Source: Flavobacterium acetivorans (GTDB lineage Bacteria; Bacteroidota; Bacteroidia; Flavobacteriales; Flavobacteriaceae). Taken from it: 64,000 nucleotides of DNA. The notes below the pieces were generated by a model that worked only from the letters and a program-made list of their open reading frames with translations, did no database searches and was not told the origin of the DNA. A program made the translations under genes and the position numbers. Shown one piece after another: positions 14,802-63,298 of the stretch. Within the stretch, counting starts at the first letter, position 1. Each line of letters opens with the position of its first letter. Location: NCBI RefSeq assembly GCF_020911885.1, contig NZ_CP087132.1:1612001-1676000 (forward strand), read 5' to 3'.

Positions 14802-16046
14802 TTATCCAATTAATTGAGTGAAAAGATCTTGTTTTTCGTTGAGGTATTTAAATTCAAATCCTTTATGTGTCATTTTGTTTTTGATAGCCATAATGTCATT
14901 CTTGTTTTTTAATTCCAGTCCTACAACGGCTGGACCTACCTCTCGACTGTTTTTCTTGGTGAACTGAAAATAAGTAATGTCGTCATCCGGACCAAGGATG
15001 TCATTTACAAATTCCTTTAAGGCACCTGGACGTTGCGGAAATTGGATCATGAAATAATGCATGAGCCCTTCATACAATAAAGAACGTTCTTTTATTTCGG
15101 CAGTTCTCTCGATGTCGTTGTTGCTTCCGCTGACGATACAAACCACGTTTTTTCCTTTTATTTCGTCTTTATAAAAATCCAAAGCCGCAATAGTTAAGGC
15201 TCCCGCTGGTTCTACGACCATAGCTTCTTCGTTATACAAGCGCAAAATAGTAGTACATACTTTTCCTTCGGGAACCAGAATAATAGCGTCAAGGTTTTTT
15301 TGGCATATTTCAAAAGTCATGTTGCCTACCTGTTTTACCGCTGCGCCATCCACAAATTTATCGATGCTTTCTAATGGTGTGTTTACACCTGCGGCAATAG
15401 CAGTTTTCATCGAAGGGGCGCCCTCAGGTTCTACACCTATGATTTTAGTATTGGGACTCAATTCCTTGAATACCTCCGAAAGTCCTGCTGCCAATCCGCC
15501 ACCGCCAATAGGGACAAAGACATAGTCTATGGGCTCTTTGAAGGATTCTAAAATTTCTAAGCCTACGGTGCCCTGTCCTGCAATAACTTTTAAGTCATCA
15601 AAGGGGTGAACAAATGTTAGCTTGTTTTCTGTCGCATCTTGAGCTGCCTTTGCATAAGCATCGTCAAAAGTATCTCCTGTAAGTACAATTTCAACAAAGG
15701 ATTTTCCGAATAATTGTACCTGTTTTACTTTTTGTTTTGGGGTGGTTTTAGGCATATAAATCTTGCCCTTTATTTTTAGTAAATTGCAGGAATAGGCAAC
15801 CCCTTGTGCGTGATTTCCGGCACTGGCACATACAACCCCTTGGTTTTTTTCGTGTGATGTTAAGGTACTGATTTTGTTGTAAGCACCCCTTATTTTATAG
15901 GAACGTACAATTTGTAGATCCTCTCTTTTTAGTAATATATTCGATTCGAATTCTTCTGAAAGATTTAGGTTTTGGTTTAACGGTGTCGAAGAAATCACTC
16001 CGTTCAACTGACTCATTGCCGCTAACGCTTCTTTTAATATTTTCAT
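14802..16046 (-). CDS. ilvA: Threonine dehydratase (threonine ammonia-lyase)
   Basis: 414 residues. Fold-type II PLP enzyme converting threonine to 2-oxobutyrate, the committed step of isoleucine synthesis. The PLP lysine is K51 in VRSYKIRGAYNK; the phosphate-binding glycine loop is VPIGGGGLAAG, near residue 180. A single C-terminal ACT-like regulatory domain (about 330-414, FMIQFPQRPGALKEFVNDILGPDDDITYFQF) suggests feedback by isoleucine. It follows the ilvN-like gene by seven bases, so the two are one transcript behind the tandem isoleucine attenuators upstream. Confidence 0.96.
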   Translation of the reverse strand: MKILKEALAAMSQLNGVISSTPLNQNLNLSEEFESNILLKREDLQIVRSYKIRGAYNKISTLTSHEKNQGVVCASAGNHAQGVAYSCNLLKIKGKIYMPKTTPKQKVKQVQLFGKSFVEIVLTGDTFDDAYAKAAQDATENKLTFVHPFDDLKVIAGQGTVGLEILESFKEPIDYVFVPIGGGGLAAGLSEVFKELSPNTKIIGVEPEGAPSMKTAIAAGVNTPLESIDKFVDGAAVKQVGNMTFEICQKNLDAIILVPEGKVCTTILRLYNEEAMVVEPAGALTIAALDFYKDEIKGKNVVCIVSGSNNDIERTAEIKERSLLYEGLMHYFMIQFPQRPGALKEFVNDILGPDDDITYFQFTKKNSREVGPAVVGLELKNKNDIMAIKNKMTHKGFEFKYLNEKQDLFTQLIG

Positions 16047-16053
16047 AATCTAT

Positions 16054-16638
16054 TTATTTTGTTTCAAAAACCATGTTGCTATGATTTGAAAATGGGTTGT
16101 TGCTGTGTTTTTGTGTTGAGGTTTTCTCTATGTCCAAAATACCTATTGGTTTTTCATTCGATTTTGGAAGTGCAATTCTACAAGTTTTGACAAATTCAAT
16201 CAAATCATATTTCCGTAGTTCCTGAAGAAGATTATTGATTTCCTGTCCCTTTCCCTGGGCTTCAAATATGGCGTAATCTTCTTGAATCAGGACAGGCTTA
16301 GCTCCGTATTCCTTTAATAGTTGTTCCGCTTTTGCTTCTTTGAAGCTACTGGCTATTGGGACTTTGCATAATGCTGTTTCCTGTTCGATTATCTCCTCAG
16401 CGGTATTGGAATAAACTTCTAAAACACCCACTGTTTTTTCTATTTGAAGAATCAGATTTTTTACCACCGTATCAGTCTCGTTTAACACAATGGCAAATCT
16501 ATATTTTTTTTCTATTTCGTTAAGTGAAATGTTTAAGCTTTCTGTTCTAATTTTTCTTCTGGAAAGAATAAGGTCAATTTTATTGATAAGGTTGAGCTCA
16601 TTTTCGGTATAGATGCTTATGGTATATTCCTGTTTCAT
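16054..16638 (-). CDS. ilvN: IlvN-like acetolactate synthase regulatory subunit (divergent ACT domain)
   Basis: 194 residues. An N-terminal ACT domain (about 1-75, EYTISIYTENELNLINKIDLIL..TESLNIS) is followed by the IlvN C-terminal domain (about 80-165, ALCKVPI..LLKEYGAKPVLIQEDYAIFEAQG..LRKYDLIEFVKTCRIAL) and a 30-residue tail. It should bind and stimulate the catalytic acetolactate synthase subunit. Aligned by eye with E. coli IlvH, the valine-pocket glycine (G14) is N16 here and N29 is R31, so valine feedback may be lost. No ilvB lies nearby, which is unusual. A specialised role in isoleucine synthesis is inferred from ilvA and the leader. Confidence 0.85.
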   Translation of the reverse strand: MKQEYTISIYTENELNLINKIDLILSRRKIRTESLNISLNEIEKKYRFAIVLNETDTVVKNLILQIEKTVGVLEVYSNTAEEIIEQETALCKVPIASSFKEAKAEQLLKEYGAKPVLIQEDYAIFEAQGKGQEINNLLQELRKYDLIEFVKTCRIALPKSNEKPIGILDIEKTSTQKHSNNPFSNHSNMVFETK

Positions 16639-16685: not shown

Positions 16686-16720
16686 AAAAAAAAAGCCTTT
16701 CTCATTTTGGTGAGAAAGGC
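16686..16720 (-). terminator. Attenuator terminator 2 of the ilvN-ilvA leader
   Basis: Perfect 10-bp stem GCCTTTCTCA / TGAGAAAGGC (16711-16720 with 16695-16704), loop of six, followed on the minus strand by nine T. It lies between leader peptide 2 and ilvN, so it must be bypassed for ilvN-ilvA expression. Confidence 0.9.
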
Positions 16721-16747
16721 AAATAGGGGCACTATTATTCTGACTCG

Positions 16748-16804
16748 TCAACTGAAACGAATAATGATAATAATGATAATTGCGATTATAGATAAATTTT
16801 TCAT
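16748..16804 (-). CDS. Isoleucine-rich leader peptide 2
   Basis: An 18-codon open reading frame, MKNLSIIAIIIIIIIRFS and stop, with nine isoleucine codons (ATA, ATC and ATT). It follows terminator 1 and precedes terminator 2. The run of Ile codons is what a ribosome-stalling isoleucine attenuator needs. In the RNA, the last two Ile codons plus C (16765-16759, AUUAUUC) can pair with GAAUAAU (16740-16734). Overlapping GUCAGAA (16744-16738) can pair at six of seven positions with UUCUCAC of the terminator stem. That gives mutually exclusive structures. The peptide itself need have no function. Confidence 0.88.
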   Translation of the reverse strand: MKNLSIIAIIIIIIIRFS

Positions 16805-16810
16805 TGGACT

Positions 16811-16840
16811 AAAAAAAAAACCTCCCGATGTGGGAGGTTT
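16811..16840 (-). terminator. Attenuator terminator 1 of the ilvN-ilvA leader
   Basis: 9-bp stem AAACCTCCC / GGGAGGTTT with a five-base loop, followed on the minus strand by about ten T. It sits between leader peptide 1 and leader peptide 2. Confidence 0.9.
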
Positions 16841-16882
16841 GATAAATATATTTGTTTTACTAATTTATATAACACTCCGCTA

Positions 16883-16939
16883 TTATTGTTGAATAATAAT
16901 AATGATAATAGCGATAATAATGTTACTTAAATTTTTCAT
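16883..16939 (-). CDS. Isoleucine-rich leader peptide 1
   Basis: An 18-codon open reading frame, MKNLSNIIIAIIIIIIQQ and stop, with nine isoleucine codons. It starts about 20 bases after a full promoter. In the RNA, CGCUAUUAU inside the Ile run (16913-16905) is perfectly complementary to AUAAUAGCG overlapping the stop codon (16886-16878). The next bases GGAGUGUU (16878-16871) can pair with AACCUCC (16839-16833) in the terminator stem, with one bulged U. A ribosome stalled at Ile codons would free the second segment and block termination. It shares MKNLS, length and Ile count with leader 2, so one probably arose by duplication. Confidence 0.9.
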   Translation of the reverse strand: MKNLSNIIIAIIIIIIQQ

Positions 16940-16957
16940 TGTTTTTTGTTTGTTGGG

Positions 16958-16987
16958 CAAATGTATCGATTATTTGATAAAATCAAA
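16958..16987 (-). promoter_or_regulatory. Promoter of the ilv leader and ilvN-ilvA
   Basis: On the minus strand TTTG (16987-16984), 18 bases, then TACATTTG (16965-16958): a full match to the Bacteroidota -33/-7 consensus. Transcription would begin about 12-15 bases before leader peptide 1, which makes the region an independent unit from the upstream lipoprotein gene. Confidence 0.8.
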
Positions 16988-16997
16988 TTAAAAAATA

Positions 16998-17537
16998 TTA
17001 TTTTTTTGAATTTGAAGGAGGGAACTGCGCTAAAATTTTTGAGACAAATTCATTAATTTGGCTTTCTTTTTTGGCGCGATTTTCAGTTAAATAACCATTG
17101 CCTTCACCTTCCCAAACTAATTCTTTTTTCTTGGCATCAATTAAATCAATATAAAGGGTTCCTTCTGTAGAAGAGCTTACATAAGTGCGTCCTCCCCAAA
17201 GGTAAGGATTCCATCCCCATCCCCAGCCATATCCCCAGCCGGCATTGTATTGATTTACATCTAAACGCTCTCTTTCTTTAGTAAGAATATTGATGAGTAA
17301 ATCTGGATTTTCGCTTTTGGTCATTCCTTTTTTGCTTAATTCGTTGTCAATTGCATGAAGAATTCTTTTCTTGTCTAATTCTGAAATATTAGCTCTGTCA
17401 ATACCTCTTTTATGGAAAGCATAGGTTTTGTATTGATTGAAATCAACATTGGTATCATAATCTGAATATACTCTGACGGAACTGCATGATGCAATAACGA
17501 AAAGTAAGAATACTGGAAGGAATTTAATTGCTTTCAT
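16998..17537 (-). CDS. DUF4136 domain-containing lipoprotein
   Basis: 179 residues with a lipoprotein signal (MKAIKFLPVFLLFVIASC, cysteine 18-19 region) and a DUF4136 domain: VRVYSDYDTNVDFNQYKTYAFHKRG at the start, a Gly/Trp-rich loop GWGYGWGWGWNPYLWGG, then TEGTLYIDLIDAKKKELVWEGEG. Such proteins are small envelope lipoproteins of unknown role. It lies between hutU and the ilv leader on the same strand but is separated from ilv by the ilv promoter. No link to amino-acid metabolism is evident. Confidence 0.9.
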   Translation of the reverse strand: MKAIKFLPVFLLFVIASCSSVRVYSDYDTNVDFNQYKTYAFHKRGIDRANISELDKKRILHAIDNELSKKGMTKSENPDLLINILTKERERLDVNQYNAGWGYGWGWGWNPYLWGGRTYVSSSTEGTLYIDLIDAKKKELVWEGEGNGYLTENRAKKESQINEFVSKILAQFPPSNSKK

Positions 17538-17586
17538 GTCTTAAATATTTGGTTACTATGTGTTTACTAAAGATACGCTCAAATTT

Positions 17587-19578
17587 TTAAAAATCCAATA
17601 GCTCGTCTGCCACTGTATTAGGAAGAGTGACCTTCAATAGAGGTTGTGTTGCCATTGCCCTTTTTATGGCAAAGACAGCTCCTTCATTTCTTGCCCAACT
17701 TCTTCTGGAAATCCCATTATTAACATCCCAAAAGAGCATGGATTGCAAACGTTTAGAGGCTTCTGTTGAACCATCAAGAACCATACCAAAACCACCGTTA
17801 ATAACCTCGCCCCAGCCAACTCCTCCTCCGTTATGGATTGATACCCAGGTGGCACCACGGAAGCTGTCTCCTATTACGTTTTGTATGGCCATATCGGCTG
17901 TAAAACGGGATCCATCATAAATATTGGATGTCTCTCTGTATGGAGAATCAGTTCCGGAAACATCGTGATGATCGCGACCTAAAACGACTGTTCCAATTTC
18001 TCCTTTGGCAATAGCCTGATTGAAAGCTTCGGCAATTTTTACACGACCTTCTGCATCGGCATATAAAATACGTGCTTGAGAACCTACGACTAATTTATTT
18101 TCTTGAGCTCCTTTTATCCACTGAATGTTATCAGCCATTTGTTGCTGGATTTCTTCAGGTGAGTTTTTCATCATTTCCTCAAGAACCGCACATGCAATAG
18201 CGTCTGTTTTTGCCAAATCTTCTGTTTTGTTAGAGGCGCAAACCCAACGGAATGGGCCAAACCCATAATCGAAGCACATAGGTCCCATGATATCTTGTAC
18301 ATAACTTGGGTATTTGAATTCTCTTCCTAGAGTAGGATTTTCGGCCATTACATTTGCTCCGGCGCGGGATGCTTCCAGTAAAAAGGCATTTCCATAGTCA
18401 AAGAAATAAGTTCCCTTGGCAGTATGTTTGTTAATAGCATCGGCATGACGGCGTAATGTTTTTTGGACCTCGACTTTAAATTGTTCCGGATTGTTGGCCA
18501 TCATTTCATTCGATTCTTCGAAACTAAAACCAGTAGGATAGTAGCCTCCAGCCCATGGATTGTGAAGTGAGGTTTGGTCAGAACCTAAATCGATATGTAT
18601 GTTTTCTTTGTCAAATTTTTCCCAAACATCAACCACATTTCCCAAATAGGCAATAGATACGATTTCTTGGTTGGCTTTGGCCAAAGCGACTCTTTTTACT
18701 AGTTCGTCAATGTCTTCTATAACTTCATTGATCCAACCTTGACTGTGGCGGATGTTGGTGATTTTAGCATTAACTTCGGCGCAAACGGTGATACAGCCGG
18801 CAATGTTTCCGGCTTTGGGTTGTGCCCCACTCATACCGCCTAATCCTGAGGTTACGAATAGTCCCCCTGATGGACTGCGTTTTATTTTTCTAAAACCATT
18901 TAAAACGGTAATAGTTGTACCGTGTACAATTCCTTGCGGACCAATGTACATATAGCTTCCGGCGGTCATTTGTCCGTATTGAGAAACGCCCAAAGCGTTC
19001 ATTTTTTCCCAATCATCCGGTTTAGAGTAATTAGGAATTACCATTCCGTTGGTCACCACTACTCTTGGTGCTTCTTTATGCGAAGGGAATAAGCCCATTG
19101 GGTGGCCAGAATAAATGGTCAGTGTTTGCTCATCGGTCATTTCCGATAAGTATTGCATGGTTAGGAGGTATTGTGCCCAGTTTTGGAAAACGGCTCCATT
19201 GCCTCCGTATGTAATTAACTCATGTGGATGTTGGGCTACGGCATAATCCAGATTGTTCTGGATCATTAGCATAATGGCTTTTGCCTGTTCGCTCTTTCCT
19301 GGATATTCTTGAATAGGTCTCGCACGCATTTCATAATCCGGGCGCAAACGGTACATGTAAATGCGACCGTAAGTTTCCAGTTCTTCTCGAAATTCAGGAA
19401 TTAATTCGGCATGATGTTTCGGCTCAAAATAGCGAAGCGCATTGCGAAGTGCCAGTTTTTTTTCTTCTGCCGATAGTATTTCTTTACGTTTAGGTGCGTG
19501 ATTGATGTTAGCCTCGTACGGTTTTGGTTGAGGTAATATAGCAGGGATTCCCTGTTGAATTTGTTCTTGAAAAGTCAT
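17587..19578 (-). CDS. hutU: Urocanate hydratase
   Basis: 663 residues, the long Bacteroidota form (proteobacterial HutU is about 555). It converts urocanate to imidazolone propionate in histidine breakdown, using tightly bound NAD+. Family signatures include YGGNGAVFQNWAQYLL, GGLFVTSGLGGMSGAQPKAG (NAD-binding), DQTSLHNPWAGGYYP and GSPIG-like late loops (HHDVSGTDSPYRETS). No hutH, hutI or hutG is near, so the other histidine-degradation genes must be elsewhere if present. It lies downstream of a small DUF5522 gene on the same strand. Confidence 0.95.
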   Translation of the reverse strand: MTFQEQIQQGIPAILPQPKPYEANINHAPKRKEILSAEEKKLALRNALRYFEPKHHAELIPEFREELETYGRIYMYRLRPDYEMRARPIQEYPGKSEQAKAIMLMIQNNLDYAVAQHPHELITYGGNGAVFQNWAQYLLTMQYLSEMTDEQTLTIYSGHPMGLFPSHKEAPRVVVTNGMVIPNYSKPDDWEKMNALGVSQYGQMTAGSYMYIGPQGIVHGTTITVLNGFRKIKRSPSGGLFVTSGLGGMSGAQPKAGNIAGCITVCAEVNAKITNIRHSQGWINEVIEDIDELVKRVALAKANQEIVSIAYLGNVVDVWEKFDKENIHIDLGSDQTSLHNPWAGGYYPTGFSFEESNEMMANNPEQFKVEVQKTLRRHADAINKHTAKGTYFFDYGNAFLLEASRAGANVMAENPTLGREFKYPSYVQDIMGPMCFDYGFGPFRWVCASNKTEDLAKTDAIACAVLEEMMKNSPEEIQQQMADNIQWIKGAQENKLVVGSQARILYADAEGRVKIAEAFNQAIAKGEIGTVVLGRDHHDVSGTDSPYRETSNIYDGSRFTADMAIQNVIGDSFRGATWVSIHNGGGVGWGEVINGGFGMVLDGSTEASKRLQSMLFWDVNNGISRRSWARNEGAVFAIKRAMATQPLLKVTLPNTVADELLDF

Positions 19579-25686: not shown

Positions 25687-25731
25687 TTAGGTTTTAAGGA
25701 GCAGAAATTTTTATCATACAATACATTTTTG

Positions 25732-25807
25732 TCCCGCTTTCCCCTTTATCCGTTCTGTCTTGTTTTTTGTACAAGACAGAACGGGATATCGGCTCTATCG
25801 GGGCTAT
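25732..25807. repeat. REP-like palindromic element, copy A
   Basis: Between mbnP and the di-heme gene. A perfect 14-bp stem (CCGTTCTGTCTTGT with its complement at 25771-25784) is framed by TCCCGCT at the left and CTATCGGGGCT at the right. The same frame occurs at 49897-49972 (copy B). There is no T-tract after the stem, so it is not a standard terminator. Confidence 0.6.
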
Positions 25808-25947
25808 TGATCACTTCTTCGTTCCTTGATGATGGAATCCAAAAAAGAAAATTCACATCACATTAAATCCATTTGAGATTGGATGAACTGAGGTGAATTA
25901 TTCCCGACAGCGATTTGTATGTCGATATAACCCCATAAACATTAACT

Positions 25948-49881: not shown

Positions 49882-49896
49882 TTCTTGGGCGTTTCA

Positions 49897-49972
49897 TCAC
49901 GCTGTTCGCTATATCTTTAGCCGCTTAAAGAAAGCCGCTAAAGGATGCCGCTGCCATCGTGAACGCAAAAAC
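49897..49972. repeat. REP-like palindromic element, copy B
   Basis: TCACGCTGTTCGCTATATCTTTAG framed on the right by CGCTAAAGGATGCCGCTGCC and ATCGTGAAC. The inner stem is CTTTAGC / GCTAAAG. The arrangement (CGCT..TATCttt..aaaGGAT..CGCT..ATCG) matches copy A at 25732-25807. Confidence 0.6.
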
Positions 49973-61567: not shown

Positions 61568-61641
61568 GCCAGCGTAGCTCAGTTGGCTAGAGCAGCTGAT
61601 TTGTAATCAGCAGGTCGTGGGTTCGAGTCCCTCCGCCGGCT
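61568..61641 (+). tRNA. tRNA-Thr (anticodon TGT)
   Basis: 74 bases. Acceptor GCCAGCG with CGCCGGC (one A-C mismatch), D arm GCTC..GAGC, anticodon stem CTGAT-TTGTAAT-ATCAG with anticodon TGT, and TΨC arm GTGGGTTCGAGTCCCTC. The CCA end is not encoded. Confidence 0.95.
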
Positions 61642-61692
61642 CTTTTTTCCAATGCGATTGGAACCAGTTCATGCAATTATTGATAAAAAAAA

Positions 61693-61773
61693 GGGGAGAT
61701 ACTCAAGCGGCCAACGAGGGCAGACTGTAAATCTGCTGTGAGAACTTCGCAGGTTCGAATCCTGCTCTCCCCA
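61693..61773 (+). tRNA. tRNA-Tyr (anticodon GTA)
   Basis: 81 bases with a long variable arm (class II). Acceptor GGGGAGA / TCTCCCC, anticodon stem CAGA-CTGTAAA-TCTG with anticodon GTA, and T loop GGTTCGAATC. Confidence 0.95.
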
Positions 61774-61858
61774 CAAGAATGGAATTTAGGTTGCTTATTT
61801 TTGAAAATAGATTTAAGGTCTGGATTTTGAAAATAAAAGCTTTTAAATCAAGGGTTCT

Positions 61859-61930
61859 GCCGACTTAGCTCAGAGGTAGAGTGCTTCCTTGGTAAGGAAG
61901 AGGTCACGGGTTCAATTCCCGTAGTTGGCT
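61859..61930 (+). tRNA. tRNA-Thr (anticodon GGT)
   Basis: 72 bases. Acceptor GCCGACT / AGTTGGC, anticodon stem CTTCC-TTGGTAA-GGAAG with anticodon GGT, and T arm CGGGTTCAATTCCCG. No tRNA-Gly lies between Tyr and Thr, unlike in E. coli. Confidence 0.95.
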
Positions 61931-61984
61931 CAAGTAAGTAGGAAATTGAAATAAATATATAACTAAGATTAAAAATTAAGTAAA

Positions 61985-63172
61985 ATGGCAAAAGAAACCT
62001 TTAACCGTTCGAAACCACACTTAAATATTGGTACGATCGGACACGTAGATCATGGAAAAACTACATTAACTGCTGCGATAACTAAAGTGTTATCTGATGC
62101 AGGTTACTGTCAAGCAAAATCATTTGATCAAATTGATAATGCTCCTGAAGAAAAAGAAAGAGGTATTACAATTAATACATCACACGTTGAGTATGAAACT
62201 GCTAACCGTCACTATGCGCACGTTGACTGTCCTGGTCACGCGGATTACGTAAAGAACATGGTTACTGGAGCTGCTCAAATGGATGGGGCTATTCTTGTTG
62301 TAGCTGCTACTGACGGACCAATGCCACAAACACGTGAGCATATCCTTTTAGGTCGTCAAGTAGGTATTCCTAGAATTGTTGTATTCATGAATAAAGTGGA
62401 TATGGTTGATGATGAGGAATTGTTAGAGCTTGTTGAAATGGAAATCAGAGACTTATTGTCTTTCTATGAATATGATGGGGATAATTGTCCTGTAATTCAA
62501 GGTTCTGCTTTAGGAGGATTGAATAATGATCCAGCTTGGGTACCAAAAATTCTTGAATTGATGGATGCTGTTGATGCTTGGATTGAAGAGCCTGTTAGAG
62601 ATGTTGCGAAACCTTTCTTGATGCCGGTTGAGGATGTATTTACAATTACAGGTCGTGGAACTGTTGCTACAGGTCGTATCGAAACTGGTGTTGCTAATAC
62701 AGGTGATGCGGTTGAAATTATTGGTATGGGGGCTGAGAAATTGACTTCTACTATTACTGGAGTTGAGATGTTCCGTAAAATCCTTGATAGAGGTGAAGCT
62801 GGAGATAACGTAGGTTTGTTGTTGAGAGGTATTGATAAAGAATCTATCAAAAGAGGAATGGTTATCATTAAGCCAGGATCTGTGAAGCCACACGCTACTT
62901 TTAAAGCTGAGGTTTATATCTTGAAAAAAGAAGAAGGTGGACGTCATACTCCATTCCATAATAACTACCGTCCACAGTTCTACGTACGTACAACTGACGT
63001 AACTGGAGTTATTACTTTGCCAGAAGGTGTAGAGATGGTTATGCCAGGAGATAACTTAACTATTAATGTAGCTTTGTTAAGCCCGATTGCAATGAATGTA
63101 GGTTTACGTTTTGCTATCCGTGAAGGTGGTAGAACTGTAGGTGCAGGTCAGGTAACTGAGATTGTAGCATAA
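61985..63172 (+). CDS. tuf: Elongation factor Tu
   Basis: 395 residues. Delivers aminoacyl-tRNA to the ribosome. GTPase motifs are GHVDHGKT (P loop), [17 protein letters not shown] and NKVD; domains II and III are complete and end [11 protein letters not shown]. It follows three tRNA genes and precedes tRNA-Trp, secE and nusG, the standard order. Confidence 0.99.
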
Positions 63173-63190
63173 TTATAAAATAAATTTATA

Positions 63191-63220
63191 ACCAGCAATA
63201 TCTTTATTGGTATTGCTGGT
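63191..63220 (+). terminator. Hairpin after tuf
   Basis: 10-bp stem ACCAGCAATA / TATTGCTGGT, ten-base loop. Few T follow, so it could be a weak terminator or an RNase processing site before tRNA-Trp. Confidence 0.55.
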
Positions 63221-63227
63221 TAATTCT

Positions 63228-63298
63228 ACGGGCGTAGTTCAAGGGTAGAATAGCGGTCTCCAAAACCGTTGATGGGGGTTCGAATCCCTCCGCCCGTG
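63228..63298 (+). tRNA. tRNA-Trp (anticodon CCA)
   Basis: 71 bases. Acceptor ACGGGCG / CGCCCGT, anticodon loop CTCCAAA with anticodon CCA, and T arm GGGGGTTCGAATCCCTC. It lies between tuf and secE, as usual in Bacteroidota. Confidence 0.95.

Follow-up and report, generated by a model that had tools for sequence, protein, structure and literature searches.

The ilvN2-ilvA leader and its surroundings

The window analysed here, a stretch of 64,000 nt from Flavobacterium acetivorans (contig NZ_CP087132.1, positions 1,612,001 to 1,676,000), carries two genes of isoleucine synthesis on its minus strand, ilvN2 (16054..16638) for an acetolactate synthase small subunit and ilvA (14802..16046) for threonine ammonia-lyase. 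The ilvA product scored above the cut-offs of TIGR02079 and NF006390. The ilvN2 product scored above the cut-off of TIGR00119; in Pfam it matched ALS_ss_C only, and no ACT model was matched. The gene, called ilvN in the earlier note, is a divergent second copy beside a canonical ilvDBNC cluster. That cluster, in the same genome, has the order leuA-leuB-ilvD-ilvB-ilvN-ilvC (gene names by reading), with a leader between leuB and ilvD. The leader, MKLFVIIPSIINVIVIITWAEGMV (L154, minus strand, 11047), is single, with mixed Ile and Val codons and a CCTCCC terminator.

Upstream of ilvN2, and on the same strand, one promoter is followed by two leader units. The promoter, of the Bacteroidota type TTTG-N18-TACATTTG, was read directly at 16958..16987, with TTTG at 16987-16984 and TACATTTG at 16965-16958. 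Leader frame 1, MKNLSNIIIAIIIIIIQQ (16939-16883), and leader frame 2, MKNLSIIAIIIIIIIRFS (16804-16748), both run to a stop codon, have 18 codons of which nine encode Ile, and begin with MKNLS; they were read directly and recur in relatives. The coordinates given for frames and terminator ends in the earlier note were exact to the base, and the intrinsic terminator it had assigned to each frame was found from sequence, fold and detector. Terminator 1, AAACCTCCC-ACATC-GGGAGGTTT with its U-run, occupies 16811..16840 (minus strand; hairpin 16840-16818, U-run to 16811), and terminator 2, GCCTTTCTCA-CCAAAA-TGAGAAAGGC with its U-run, occupies 16686..16720 (minus strand; hairpin 16720-16695, U-run to 16686). 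As read from the sequence, each of the two units behind the single promoter holds a complete sensor and a terminator. An Ile-rich frame, a terminator after each frame and downstream genes of Ile synthesis (the ilvN small subunit and ilvA) were all found, as expected of an attenuator. Elsewhere in the window two Flavo-1 RNA motifs of unknown function lie on the minus strand (25726-25809 and 49891-49971), and four tRNA genes lie at 61568-63298.

The two-leader observation is not due to chance. Our unit detector called an ATG frame of 10-34 codons in which one residue occurred at least 4 times and made up at least 27%, with a hairpin terminator 5-95 nt past the stop codon. Over the whole window it returned the two Ile units, the only other hit being an unrelated Leu-type frame (23692, plus strand). 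With both settings used, 12 shuffled windows (1,536,000 strand-bases) yielded no Ile unit. Seven consecutive Ile codons (ATH x7) were present at 4 places in the whole genome, leader 2 among them. The folds of both leaders were more stable than all 200 shuffles (z -6.0 and -5.2). No Rfam model, leader-peptide families included, reached its gathering score over the leader; the best match below threshold was Phe_leader (31.5 against the 55 bits needed), followed by RprA and MicF. T-box and riboswitch models gave no match to the leader either at the gathering score or at E up to 1. A search of the same genome for four His codons listed 39 places, and among the 12 inspected no His leader was found; the sole His-run frame there was an out-of-phase frame within a protein gene and was rejected. 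No leader was recognised by eye upstream of leuA in this genome.

Conservation and order of the leader units

The double Ile leader, which the earlier note had suggested looking for in other genomes, was recovered in relatives by two routes. When the window's IlvN was searched against 150 genomes of the genus, 79 gave matches and the best 30 loci were read. All 14 stand-alone ilvN loci of the window's type (its own included) had two Ile leaders, one near -305 and one near -170; their terminators were of the same two types, and the ATG-to-ATG distance was 135-140; among the best 30 loci, none of the 16 other ilvN loci had an Ile leader within 700 nt. A covariance model (R1) built on the second unit had matches at E up to 0.01 in 93 of the 398 genus genomes and in 53 of the 397 family genomes. 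We inspected 90 places, namely 72 of the 74 genus-search places with E up to 1e-4 plus one at 1.3e-4 (G015, known from the protein search, and G094 were left out), and 17 of the 20 further family-search genomes, with E up to 1.1e-4. With the strict caller, 69 of these had two units, 4 had three, 14 had a single one and 3 lacked any. Series of two or three were thus present at 73 of the 90 places, and they extended to 12 genera of the family besides the window's own (L135-L141, L143, L145, L146, L150, L151). Because the units are related by descent, family-wide counts are not independent of each other.

By eye, several single or double calls were one unit longer than the strict caller gave, the first leader there having a TTG start or falling just short of a threshold. 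A relaxed caller gained first leaders at L102, L112, L113, L116, L128 and L132; it was set aside for its doubtful gains (L095, L123) and a double count (L150), and the strict counts were kept. The single calls L049- and L124- were antisense artefacts. A codon-substitution test was dropped, as frames of equal length were out of register and synonymous counts uninformative.

The units followed a near-fixed order, with a CCTCC-type (A) unit first and a CCTTTCTC-type (B) unit next, B being sometimes repeated. By the terminator rule the 73 arrays comprised 61 A-B, 4 A-B-B, 6 B-B and 2 A-A, and one more A-type leader was seen by eye upstream of several B-B arrays. Since the A and B types keep their order across arrays, the window's two units, as judged from their sequences, are not recent copies of each other. 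Where a triple array repeats the B unit, the copies look like recent duplications. At L114 the first leader is set apart from the second and third by a gene of roughly 0.8 kb (minus strand, about 930-1820). In 63 of the 73 arrays the promoter motif TAnnTTTG occurred upstream of the first leader at a distance of no more than 120 nt, in 28 of the 73 with TTG at 17-24 nt; the motif lay inside the array in 3 of the 73.

We also examined ilvD operons, which were chosen independently of the leader model. For this, 148 genomes of the order were searched for IlvD and the upstream regions of 29 matches were read. The canonical ilvD cluster of the window's own genus had one leader in 5 of 8 cases and none called in 3, and the ilvD upstream regions of eight other genera of the family had one unit in 5 and none in 3. 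Of 11 cases from another family of the order (f5), 4 had two units, all of them in one genus, and 7 had one unit; at one locus of this family (L189) the gene preceding ilvD was ilvE. Two further families showed one unit and none, respectively. From these counts by genus and family it follows that the unit series is common but patchy across the order, and that a single gate is frequent at ilvD operons.

The arrangement therefore appears, from these sequence comparisons, to be a conserved family of two- or three-unit arrays and is not private to this genome. The earlier description of it as unusual does not hold within this lineage; in the literature searched, no other series for one amino acid was found.

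Alternative pairing in the window and across the family

For unit 1, the minimum-energy fold places a 1:2 protector hairpin at 16862..16933 (minus strand) over the Ile codons, the stop codon and the antiterminator arm. When the transcript was folded with a ribosome stalled on the Ile codons, an antiterminator formed at 16833..16878 (minus strand), in which 16878-16863 pairs with 16847-16833. The predicted masking of the terminator arm was 0.78 in the stalled state, 0.00 with the ribosome at the stop codon and 0.02 without a ribosome, and the stalled value was matched by none of 40 shuffles. In these predictions the unit 1 antiterminator is clear, and the unit behaves as the attenuation model asks.

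For unit 2 the minimum-energy fold gives a 1:2 protector hairpin at 16730..16775 (minus strand), and stalled-ribosome folds give a weak antiterminator at 16712..16746 (minus strand), composed of GAG/CUC, AG/CU and AAUAG/CUAUU with internal loops between them. Masking was predicted at 0.49 stalled, 0.11 at the stop codon and 0.21 without a ribosome; 6 of 40 shuffles (15%) were equally good in the stalled state, and the pairing energy of -4.4 kcal/mol was no better than that of shuffles. The window's nearest relative, L110, had a likewise weak unit 2 (0.40), while the unit 2 antiterminator was stronger in relatives than in the window. Because of this weak pairing, the second gate would be less certain in the window than in its relatives. 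Past arm 2, the stretch 16731-16742, which reads GGATTCTATTG in relatives, is conserved yet mostly unpaired in both states. We take it to fit the G-10 / T-1 / G+1 polymerase pause consensus, at about 12 nt past the 1:2 hairpin.

Across 152 units of the family, arm 2 paired with its own terminator arm 3 at a mean of -10.4 kcal/mol, compared with -7.1 for other-class arms and -6.1 for shuffled arms. Own-class pairing was the lowest (the matrix diagonal) in 5 of 6 class rows; taken one by one, many units do not stand out, as 47 of the 152 did better than 95% of other-class arms and 82 better than 95% of shuffles. In folding, the average masking of the terminator arm was 0.73 with the ribosome stalled mid-run and 0.14 with it at the stop codon, a contrast that is partly trivial as less RNA is free when the ribosome sits at the stop. 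With shuffled spacers the stalled value was 0.45; 149 of the 152 units exceeded their own shuffle mean and 85 were individually significant at 5%. Predicted masking was at least 0.5 when stalled mid-run in 147 of 152 units, and below 0.5 at the stop in 147 of 152. The arm was predicted to be free without a ribosome in only 74 of 152 units, which we counted against the model. That arm 2 is masked at the stop and freed on stalling is thus a prediction of folding.

For the B-type antiterminator, compared over 41 of 89 units, 71.8% of cells were paired, against 37-46% when it was slid; the B-type terminator had 98.0% of cells paired (41 sequences). None of 500 shuffles was as good in covariation, and one column changed in all three arms in 5 of the 41 units. 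Two of the five measures in this comparison were not above shuffles (327/500 for pairs changed on both sides, 144/500 for further pair types). With these exceptions, the shuffled spacers and the B-type comparison, as two separate controls, agree with the preference for the own arm. Between genera, terminator and arm were found as CCTCCC with GGGAUG, CCTTTCTC with GAG-UC-AGG, CTGTATC with GATACAG and CCATCC with GGATG. The antiterminator arm is thus seen to change along with the terminator across genera, and a mutually exclusive antiterminator, conserved or co-varying, is indicated for unit 1 and for the family.

Probable attenuation in series and the operon behind it

We consider it highly probable that the leader consists of two ribosome-mediated transcription attenuators in series, both sensing charged tRNA-Ile. 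This proposal of the earlier note gives the best fit to the anatomy and draws strong support from the relatives. When Ile is plentiful, the ribosome would reach the stop codon and cover the antiterminator arm, which lets the terminator form; if no ribosome is present, it would be the 1:2 hairpin that covers this arm. Under Ile shortage the ribosome would stall on the Ile run, leaving the arm past the stop codon free to pair with the terminator's 5' half, and polymerase would pass. On one transcript polymerase would have to clear terminator 1 and then terminator 2, so the read-through fractions would multiply: if each gate passes a fraction p, two in series would pass p squared, with a lower basal leak and a response slope to Ile doubled on a log scale. 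Sequence and comparison show the frames, the terminators, the fixed order of the units, their conservation and the alternative pairing with arms that change together; from these we infer that the frames are translated, that ribosomes stall in them, that read-through multiplies and that the response to Ile is steeper. For the sharper response the nearest support is by analogy, the triple c-di-GMP riboswitch being reported to respond in a more stringent and digital way than the double or single form (PMC4759541).

A different reading, which we regard as unlikely, is that only unit 1 is a working Ile sensor here and that decay has left unit 2 as a leaky or constitutive terminator, which does no more than lower output. 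The shuffle-like pairing of unit 2 and the same weakness in L110, the nearest in sequence, speak for decay. However, unit 2 is intact in its Ile run, frame length, position and terminator, its arm 2 retains GACGAGTCAG, its stalled and stop values still differ in the right direction, and a strong unrelieved terminator would silence ilvA, yet ilvA looks intact. It is very improbable that there is at most one attenuator, with terminator 1 merely ending the transcript of the upstream DUF4136 gene or the frames being untranslated and Ile-rich by AT bias. Terminator 1 does lie about 160 nt past the stop of that gene, in an AT-rich region; but the promoter sits between gene and leader, shuffled windows yielded no units, the leader pair is retained where the upstream gene differs, and antiterminator and terminator arms change together.

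The series might instead form a two-input gate, the first unit sensing Ile and Val, as a general branched-chain shortage, and the second Ile alone, which we hold to be quite unlikely. Val codons were present in 19 of 25 first units before ilvE/ilvD operons (mean 1.5) and in 15 of 47 before ilvN2 (mean 0.4); triple arrays have Val in the first leader and mostly Ile only in later ones, and in several relatives the single leader of the genus's canonical ilvDBNC cluster has about equal Ile and Val. Val is, however, also found in last units (16 of 25 before ilvE/ilvD, 24 of 47 before ilvN2), and the window's leaders have nine Ile and zero Val in both. Such a role is possible for arrays before ilvE/ilvD, but not for this window.

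Two attenuators in series for Ile remain the preferred reading, and their use may be tied to the nature of ilvN2. IlvB had one strong match in the genome, the second being remote (23% identity, E 2.5e-4), so the two small subunits would share one catalytic subunit. In seven loci read for this point (L095, L097, L099, L102, L103, L107, L108), a lone small-subunit ilvN2 stands behind the array, adjoined by neither ilvB nor ilvA. Sixteen loci have urocanase and/or DUF4136 genes ahead of the array, namely the window (16998-19578) and L060, L061, L065, L100, L101, L105, L110, L111, L117-L120, L127, L129 and L130; behind these arrays lies ilvN2-ilvA, ilvB-ilvN2-ilvA or an ilvD operon, as if the array had stayed while the operon behind it eroded. 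In Escherichia coli IlvH, residues N11 and N29 (PMC11893703) and G14 (PMC13158618) bind valine or set inhibition. The G14 position was changed in 26 of 51 distinct array-linked proteins compared with 0 of 13 ilvB-linked ones (two groups combined by hand), and the window's ilvN2 has N at the G14 position and R at the N29 position. A D at IlvH position 11 was given no weight, as it is native in C. glutamicum. These residues suggest that ilvN2 may be a valine-tolerant alternative small subunit. Tentatively, the modular array (A, B and sometimes B again, two ancient types) could be a starvation filter that has outlived its operon and that makes the one catalytic subunit valine-tolerant only once Ile starvation is deep. 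If so, the operon would have shrunk to ilvN-ilvA in the window's lineage and to a lone small-subunit gene in many relatives, and the subunit swap would come when valine feedback would otherwise block Ile synthesis.

Leader-peptide attenuation is a textbook mechanism, nearly always with one gate, and the textbook attenuators of amino-acid operons (trp, his, ilv and thr type) have one unit. The leaders described here share with them runs of regulatory codons in a short frame, a stop codon bordering arm 2, alternative 1:2 / 2:3 / 3:4 pairing, an intrinsic terminator and cognate biosynthetic genes downstream; they differ in that two or three such units, each complete, follow one another for a single amino acid. 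In the text available for Salmonella mgtCBR (PMC3641672), two leader frames also lie within one leader RNA, but they sense ATP and proline and act additively, whereas both frames here are for Ile and have their own terminators; mgtCBR was the only tandem leader-peptide case for one operon in the open-licence literature searched. Tandem TPP, glycine and c-di-GMP riboswitches likewise repeat complete sensors for one signal, judging from the accessible parts of the reports (PMC9481103, PMC4759541), the sensor being an RNA aptamer (PMC9481103) where here it is a translating ribosome. In the same genus, leader-peptide attenuation before amino-acid operons has already been proposed for Flavobacterium psychrophilum (PMC9723704); the section of that paper on 5' cis-regulatory RNAs describes no tandem arrangement, and its main text, as available, mentions neither ilv nor isoleucine. 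The available text of Naville and Gautheret 2010 (PMC2965389) contains no mention of Bacteroid or Flavobacter and gives tandem terminators for rimP only. Open-licence literature on tandem or flavobacterial leader attenuation yielded no tandem leader-peptide attenuators for one amino acid. Within the literature searched, a conserved attenuator series for one amino acid is new, while the single-unit mechanism is known.

Two or three conserved gates in series for one amino acid, with a fixed order and differing terminator sequences, would mean that bacteria stack gates read by ribosomes for steepness or lower leak, as with riboswitches, and species with one, two and three units, comparable by one reporter, would offer a natural test bed. 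The finding would extend well-supported leader-peptide attenuation to the Bacteroidota, which as a rule lack Shine-Dalgarno sequences, and it points to a regulated exchange of acetolactate synthase subunits.
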